A stretch of DNA of 59,204 nt from Reyranella sp. Its GTDB lineage: Bacteria > Pseudomonadota > Alphaproteobacteria > Reyranellales > Reyranellaceae. A program made the translations under genes and the position numbers. Each line of letters starts with the position of its first letter. Position 1 is the first letter of the stretch. Shown here in pieces: positions 16,299 through 20,645 of this stretch. The notes beneath the pieces were generated by a model. The model was not told where the DNA came from, made no database searches, and worked only from the letters and a program-made list of their open reading frames with translations. The DNA lies in contig JAQSDW010000023.1 in the NCBI GenBank assembly GCA_029946105.1, positions 1-59,204 of the forward strand, read 5' to 3'.

Positions 16299-16649
16299 TC
16301 AGCTCGGACGCCATGCCTCGTAGTGAGGCTTCGGCTTGTCGCCGCTGCCGAGCGCATGGCCTGGCGGACGGTAGGCATGATCGGTGCCGGTGAGGTTGGC
16401 CTGATGATCTTTCTGCCATGCCTTGCGCGGCGGGCCGCCGGGGGGCGGAACCGCGTCTGTCGTATAATGGAGCCAGCCGTGCCATTCCGCCGGCACGCGC
16501 GACGCCTCGGCCACACCGTTATAGATGACCCAGCGTTTGCGCCGGCGCCCGGCGATCACCCGCTTGTCCTGGAAGTAACGGTTGCCTTCGGCATCGCTGC
16601 CGACAGGTGCGCCATGCAGCTTCGTGAAGAGCCAAGTGCCGATCGTCAT
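16299..16649 (-). CDS. NADH:ubiquinone oxidoreductase accessory subunit, NDUFA12 family
   Basis: The 116-aa product shows the NDUFA12 pattern: GSDAEGNRYFQDKR, RRKRWVIYNG, ASRVPAEWHGWLHYTTD and the PPRKAWQKDHQANLTGTDHAYRP-type C-terminal half. The family is an accessory subunit of respiratory complex I found in mitochondria and alphaproteobacteria. The gene is 28 nt before mlaD and its ATG overlaps the stop codon of a small upstream open frame by 4 nt. Confidence 0.93.
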   Translation of the reverse strand: MTIGTWLFTKLHGAPVGSDAEGNRYFQDKRVIAGRRRKRWVIYNGVAEASRVPAEWHGWLHYTTDAVPPPGGPPRKAWQKDHQANLTGTDHAYRPPGHALGSGDKPKPHYEAWRPS

Positions 16650-16753
16650 GAAGGAACCACGCCTCGAAAAGTGACCGCGCCGCTTGTACGCGCGCGCTCG
16701 ATGACGCGCAACGCGACGTCATCCGGCGTGCCTTCGCAATCGTTCGACGACAT
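16646..16753 (-). CDS. Candidate 35-aa ORF coupled to NDUFA12
   Basis: A short frame starting ATG-TCG-TCG-AAC (MSSNDCEGTPDDVALRVIER...) ends in a TGA that overlaps the ATG of the NDUFA12 gene as ATGA. Codon third positions are mostly G/C like the neighbours until the last few codons. No strong ribosome site precedes it. It may be a coupled leader peptide, a small protein, or chance. I do not recognise a family. Confidence 0.35.
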   Translation of the reverse strand: MSSNDCEGTPDDVALRVIERARTSGAVTFRGVVPS

Positions 16754-16817
16754 GCGATTCGCGCGTTCAGATGACCTGTTGCACACTTGCATCATCTAGT
16801 ATCATCAACACCACGGC

Positions 16818-16860
16818 CTACAAAATGTAGTTGCGCACACAAGATTTTGTAATTTAGTAT
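16818..16860 (+). promoter_or_regulatory. nrdJ promoter with two candidate NrdR boxes
   Basis: Two imperfect palindromes match the C-w-A-n-A-T-n-T-w-G core of NrdR boxes: CAAAATGTAG (16821-16830, full box 16818-16833) and CAAGATTTTG (16840-16849, full box 16837-16852). Their centres are 19 bp apart, about two helical turns. A possible promoter has TTGCGC at 16831-16836 and TAGTAT at 16855-16860 with an 18-bp spacer, so box 2 fills the spacer and box 1 overlaps the -35. TAGTATCATC also occurs at 16797-16806 and 16855-16864. The remaining gap of about 300 bp up to nrdJ shows no B12 riboswitch that I can recognise. Confidence 0.6.
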
Positions 16861-16949
16861 CATCCGGTGCCTATATGTGCGTGCTCAATTTCAAGAGAGC
16901 ACACCCCGCTAGGGAACAAATGACGGGAACTGGGCACGGGGGATCGTCG

Positions 16950-20645
<3,696 letters not shown>

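Follow-up and report, generated by a model that had tools for sequence, protein, structure and literature searches.

A probable doubled NrdR operator with 31-19-31 box spacing at the nrdJ promoter of Reyranella

NrdR boxes share a core of six bases, C.A.AT.T.G. Two such boxes lie at the predicted promoter of nrdJ in a Reyranella genome with their centres 19 bp apart, which raises the question of whether this NrdR accepts an unusual spacing or whether the two boxes are parts of a larger operator. The DNA analysed here, referred to as the window, is a stretch of 59,204 nucleotides in which nrdJ, encoding a B12-dependent class II ribonucleotide reductase (RNR), occupies 16950..20645 on the + strand (NF005736, 2117 bits). 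The longest open reading frame begins with the first ATG at 16875 and the NF005736 match to it opens at residue 26; the family alignment places the start of nrdJ at 16950. Upstream we predict a promoter with the -35 element TTGCGC (16831..16836, + strand), which is kept in Reyranellaceae, and the -10 element TAGTAT (16855..16860, + strand), which reads TACTAT in many relatives, separated by a spacer of 18 bp. A simple promoter scan of the window, with a threshold of 4/6 per hexamer, did not list this promoter (TTGCGC scores 3/6), therefore we based its assignment on conservation in the family.

Box 1, ctaCAAAATGTAGttg, spans 16818..16833 (centre 16825.5) and ends in the first three bases (TTG) of the -35 element, an overlap of 3 bp. 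Box 2, acaCAAGATTTTGtaa, spans 16837..16852 (centre 16844.5) and lies inside the spacer between the -35 and -10 elements. Both are 16-bp palindromes with the two conserved G-C pairs and all six core bases, in agreement with a preliminary description of this locus, which had also correctly placed one box within the promoter spacer and the other over the -35. A complete core occurs at 13 of 59,189 positions in the window, and among these boxes 1 and 2 are the only two separated by 15 to 59 bp; by matrix score, they are also the top two boxes of the window. Binding by NrdR requires two boxes, and when gaps of 12-27 bp were tried with four NrdR proteins, those of 14-17 and 24-27 bp were bound and the others about two orders of magnitude more weakly (PMC12051234, available part). 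The gap between boxes 1 and 2 is 3 bp, which falls outside that series and outside the permitted spacing of a pair, and matrix scores revealed no strong 32- or 42-bp pair involving either box.

The preliminary description had missed two further boxes, each exactly 31 bp outside one of the inner ones. Box 0 (16787..16802, centre 16794.5) is the distal partner of box 1, and box 3 (16868..16883, centre 16875.5), the partner of box 2, lies over the predicted transcription start. Both match the core at 5/6 positions: box 0 has T rather than A at core position 6 and keeps both G-C pairs, while box 3 has C rather than G at core position 13, so that one of its two conserved G-C pairs is reversed. The chance of a match of at least 5/6 is about 0.004 per position, and the only pairs in the window at 31 bp with a summed core score of at least 11/12 are boxes 0 and 1 and boxes 2 and 3. 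With centres 31 bp apart and gaps of 15 bp, both pairs agree with the separation of about 15-16 bp expected of paired boxes (PMC12051234). A matrix trained on other families gave scores of 3.5, 15.6, 16.8 and -0.9 for boxes 0 to 3, and 22 and 75 positions in the window score as high as or higher than boxes 0 and 3, respectively. In Streptomyces coelicolor, reversing the conserved G-C pairs lowered binding by approximately 50-60 fold (PMC9110341, available part), and the weak outer boxes at the present promoter suggest that at least one site has low affinity.

We propose that the nrdJ promoter probably carries a doubled NrdR operator, in which boxes 0 and 1 and boxes 2 and 3 form two pairs in tandem with a spacing of 31-19-31. 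The 19 bp between boxes 1 and 2 is then most likely the gap between two standard pairs and not a new NrdR spacing. The proposal draws on the boxes, their spacings and conservation, the presence of nrdR, a 31-bp pair at nrdA and the recurrence of the layout in other families. A less likely reading, although one to be taken seriously, is that boxes 0 and 1 (31 bp) are the single working pair, and that box 2, whose partner box 3 has decayed, is an extra box that adds little. The reversed G-C pair and low matrix score of box 3 fit such decay, and in E. coli nrdAB one of three boxes is indeed not needed (PMC12176259, available part). However, box 2 keeps a complete core in 68/68 promoters of the family and box 3 matches at 5/6 in 67 of them, and the 31-19-31 arrangement is found in other families with both G-C pairs present in box 3, for example at loci L255 and L023.

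The conservation of the doubled operator was assessed in Reyranellaceae, where a search for nrdJ gave a match in 75/75 genomes. Two of these (G031 and G054) matched only near E 1e-19 and represent other reductases, which leaves nrdJ itself in 73 genomes. Upstream DNA was obtained from 70/75 genomes, including the one studied here; G001, G021, G031, G046 and G054 were left out (G031, G046 and G054 being without a listed N-terminal match), as were the partial second copies of G037 and G055. From the 69 sequences that could be read (L094 had no upstream DNA), 68 promoters were counted, the remaining one having less than 110 bp upstream. The preliminary description had made its reading depend on nrdR in the genome and on boxes at orthologous nrdJ promoters. 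All four boxes stand at the fixed 31-19-31 offsets in 67/68 promoters, with core counts of 5, 6, 6 and 5 for boxes 0 to 3, and the single exception gives 5, 6, 6 and 3; as Reyranellaceae share ancestry, 67/68 does not amount to 67 independent events. The stretch that separates boxes 0 and 1 is variable, as is the one from the -10 element to box 3. In box 3, the core positions 4, 6, 8, 9 and 11 carry 1.9-2.0 bits and the free positions 5, 7 and 10 only 1.0-1.2 bits, which makes the latter the most variable positions in the middle of the box, exactly where NrdR boxes are free. Position 13 of this box, with C for G, counts against the reading. Moreover, the free position 12 of box 3 is close to fixed and free positions of box 0 are fixed, and we infer that other constraints also act at the two outer boxes.

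These additional constraints bear on a further reading, which we consider improbable, in which the outer conserved blocks are sites for other factors or parts of the promoter and start region, and resemble NrdR boxes by accident. Box 0 is constrained beyond the needs of NrdR and adjoins a conserved TGTTGC hexamer (16777..16782, no strand assigned), which is fixed 4 bp upstream of the box and exact in 65/68 Reyranellaceae promoters, while box 3 adjoins a possible hairpin in the mRNA leader; the conservation of both boxes may come in part from these two elements. An accidental likeness would, however, have to account for the exact 31-bp placement on both sides, each expected by chance at about 0.004 per position, and for the recurrence of 31-19-31 in other families. 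As a separate observation, TGTTGC together with the TAGTATCATC that follows box 0 resembles, by eye, the main promoter in shortened form.

We then turned to nrdJ promoters of other alphaproteobacteria. Consensus matches in 69 regions from outside Reyranellaceae (80 loci less 10 of Reyranellaceae and one without upstream DNA) gave 16 pairs at 31 bp (14 loci), 7 at 32 bp and 3 at 33 bp, with a minor peak at 75 bp (5); 19 bp occurred once, and the locus concerned has the 31-19-31 layout. For 172 regions in total (69, 26 and 80, less three duplicates), we used a position matrix built from 233 boxes. Since 40 further listed class-level matches, and any beyond the listing, were left out, the set leans to nearer relatives. 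In the 137/172 regions with a strong top box, the partners of this box peak at -31 (z 6.3) and +31 (z 3.5), whereas +19 (z 0.3) and -19 (z 0.0) show no enrichment. Two separate pairs with spacings of 30-33 bp are present in 71/172 regions and in 0.0 shuffled ones; at other thresholds the count was 82/172 against 1.0 and, at the loosest, 86 against 5.6. With the matrix trained on one half of the regions and tested on the other, two pairs were found in 53/103 and 18/69 regions and in none of the shuffles. Grouping of the 172 regions at 80% identity left 163 groups, 68 of them with two pairs. Two pairs occur upstream of nrdJ in 33/89 loci, compared with 0/89 in both of the neighbouring stretches of the genome that were examined.

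The gap between the two pairs is most often 19 bp (11 cases), followed by 31 bp (5 cases). In the two halves of the cross-test, 19 bp was the commonest gap in one (8 cases) and the second in the other (3 cases), after 13 bp. Eight of the 11 cases come from eight different families within the set of 26 regions, and the other three belong to the set of 69; four include a pair at 30 or 32 bp, and several contain a weak box. Box 1 ends in TTG in 6/11, has TTG within its last bases in two and lacks it in three, and A/T-rich stretches resembling a -10 element follow box 2, as judged by eye only. We also kept the 35/172 regions in which a box ending in TTG has a partner at -31. A second pair is present in 18 of these (four with a gap of 19 bp), compared with 0.05 when the downstream part was shuffled, and the most box-like offsets are +31 (z 2.9) and, second, +19 (z 2.7). 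In Reyranella, the 19-bp inner gap is perhaps explained by box 1 providing the -35 TTG and box 2 taking up the spacer between -35 and -10; judged from this anatomy, the gap is probably set by promoter geometry. A different geometry, 31-13-31, recurs at nrdJ loci that are mostly from Rhodobacteraceae (L059, L065, L084 and L086), each with two pairs and an inner gap of 13 bp.

The same data bear on the pairing of boxes 1 and 2 claimed in the preliminary description, according to which Reyranella NrdR would accept a 19-bp centre spacing and thus a 3-bp gap. This reading is attractive at first sight, as boxes 1 and 2 outscore every other box in the window, the 19-bp distance is fixed in Reyranellaceae, and +19 ranks second among box-like offsets in the 35 regions above, a result that also agrees with the doubled operator. 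We nevertheless consider it highly improbable. Partners of the strongest box are not enriched at 19 bp in the 137 regions; of the spacers of 12-27 bp tried in published work, those other than 14-17 and 24-27 bp are bound far worse (PMC12051234, available part); and the NrdR of Reyranella shows no insertion or deletion relative to the best solved chains. Its alignment to each of the three best solved NrdR chains is free of gaps, and D15, R17 and the RRRR run are all retained, residues whose roles in NrdR have been described (PMC9110341, available part). The gene was found on another contig than nrdJ (TIGR00244, 179 bits), and nrdR is present in 72/75 Reyranellaceae genomes and in 51/51 of those of good quality. 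Since nrdR is present and the boxes are conserved, neither of the two grounds for doubt raised in the preliminary description, a genome without nrdR or boxes that are not conserved, applies. Its view of the nrdJ upstream region as a repressor layout was right in kind, as predicted from box positions and conservation; its pairing of boxes 1 and 2 was not upheld.

The genome also carries class I nrdAB and a short class II gene of the NrdJ/Z type (L089:2353-4713). At nrdA of the same family, we searched 61 genomes, which returned 30 loci, one of them (L216) without an anchor. With the search limited to 31 and 32 bp, a 31-bp pair is present in 29/29 readable loci, and 31 bp is the best spacing in 25/29 when all spacings from 17 to 60 bp were allowed, the others being 20, 20, 17 and 53 bp. 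The spacing of 31 bp at nrdA, together with the absence of enrichment at 19 bp in other alphaproteobacteria, led us to reject a 19-bp NrdR spacing. The upstream box of the nrdA pair lacks the central AT, like one working box at E. coli nrdAB (PMC12176259, available part). Searches near nrdR, a glyA-like gene and the short NrdJ/Z gene found no pair of NrdR boxes. Two boxes with 5/6 cores at 31 bp lie upstream of an rpiB-like gene (L088, 1407) that precedes nrdR, which may be due to chance; the names glyA-like and rpiB-like come from reading of the translations.

By analogy with published NrdR proteins, the doubled operator would work as follows. When dATP is plentiful, NrdR tetramers loaded with ATP and dATP would bind one or both pairs, one tetramer per pair, with the two boxes of each pair three helical turns (31 bp) apart and the inner boxes 19 bp apart. 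The four boxes reach from the upstream side of the -35 to beyond the predicted start (about 16867); bound NrdR would kink the DNA and cover the -35, the spacer and the start region, and its occupancy would stop transcription of nrdJ. In the solved NrdR complex, every bound box shows a sharp kink (PMC12051234, available part). With only 3 bp between the inner boxes and kinks of this sharpness, two tetramers or one octamer would have either to form a single complex on all four boxes or to exclude each other. It is tempting to speculate, although we hold this only tentatively and would sooner expect it to fail than to hold, that doubled operators whose commonest inner gap is set by -35/-10 geometry are widespread at alphaproteobacterial class II RNR genes, and that a four-box complex or exclusion gives nrdJ a two-step dATP switch that is absent from single-pair nrdAB.

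The closest published likeness is nrdAB of Listeria monocytogenes, which has four boxes in two standard pairs with spacers of 15 and 16 bp; both pairs bind NrdR in vitro and the proximal of the two overlaps the RNA polymerase site (PMC12051234, available part). That operator controls a class I RNR in Bacillota and was termed atypical (PMC12051234, available part), whereas the present one lies at a class II nrdJ in Alphaproteobacteria, with inner boxes 3 bp apart, box 1 running into the -35 and box 2 in the spacer. In contrast to the label atypical, two pairs are common in the alphaproteobacterial regions sampled here, and the count of 71/172 suggests that this layout is common at alphaproteobacterial nrdJ. 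S. coelicolor nrdRJ also encodes a class II RNR and is bound by an ATP/dATP-loaded NrdR tetramer at a pair about three turns apart; the available part of that report describes one pair, and nrdR is cotranscribed with nrdJ (PMC9110341), unlike in Reyranella, where nrdR is on another contig. E. coli nrdAB likewise has more than two boxes (0, 1 and 2), including a non-canonical box that works as a partner, but differs in having three boxes, one working pair and one dispensable box (PMC12176259, available part). Two boxes per RNR promoter are reported for Pseudomonas aeruginosa (PMC4409342, available part). Proteobacterial NrdR regulons have been predicted in bulk, and the available part of that work mentions neither nrdJ nor doubled operators (PMC5343134); our literature search, which covered few subscription papers, returned no title or abstract on doubled operators at alphaproteobacterial nrdJ. 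With the doubled operator, the seeming exception to the published three-turn rule of NrdR spacing disappears, and a testable architecture takes its place. If doubled operators are common, tools that seek one pair, or that pair the two best boxes, would misread such promoters. Two further questions follow, namely whether there is room for two NrdR tetramers next to each other, and whether repression of nrdJ is tighter than that of nrdAB.

Beside box 3, the possible leader hairpin pairs GTGCTC with GAGCAC (16881..16902, + strand). RNAalifold gave no structure on the leaders, whose alignment is gappy, therefore we counted the hairpin directly in the 68 promoters. A fully pairing 3' arm, taken as the best of a 25-base stretch, is present in 44/68 compared with 9% of shuffled sequences, and is lacking in 24/68; relatives show changes on both sides, for example GTGTTC/GAACAC. 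A search of 16600-17100 for known RNAs (Rfam) gave two matches, both below gathering scores and neither on the leader. Further downstream, a G-rich block of the leader (16920-16950), untranslated if the start is at 16950, is strongly conserved in ten Reyranella-type sequences.
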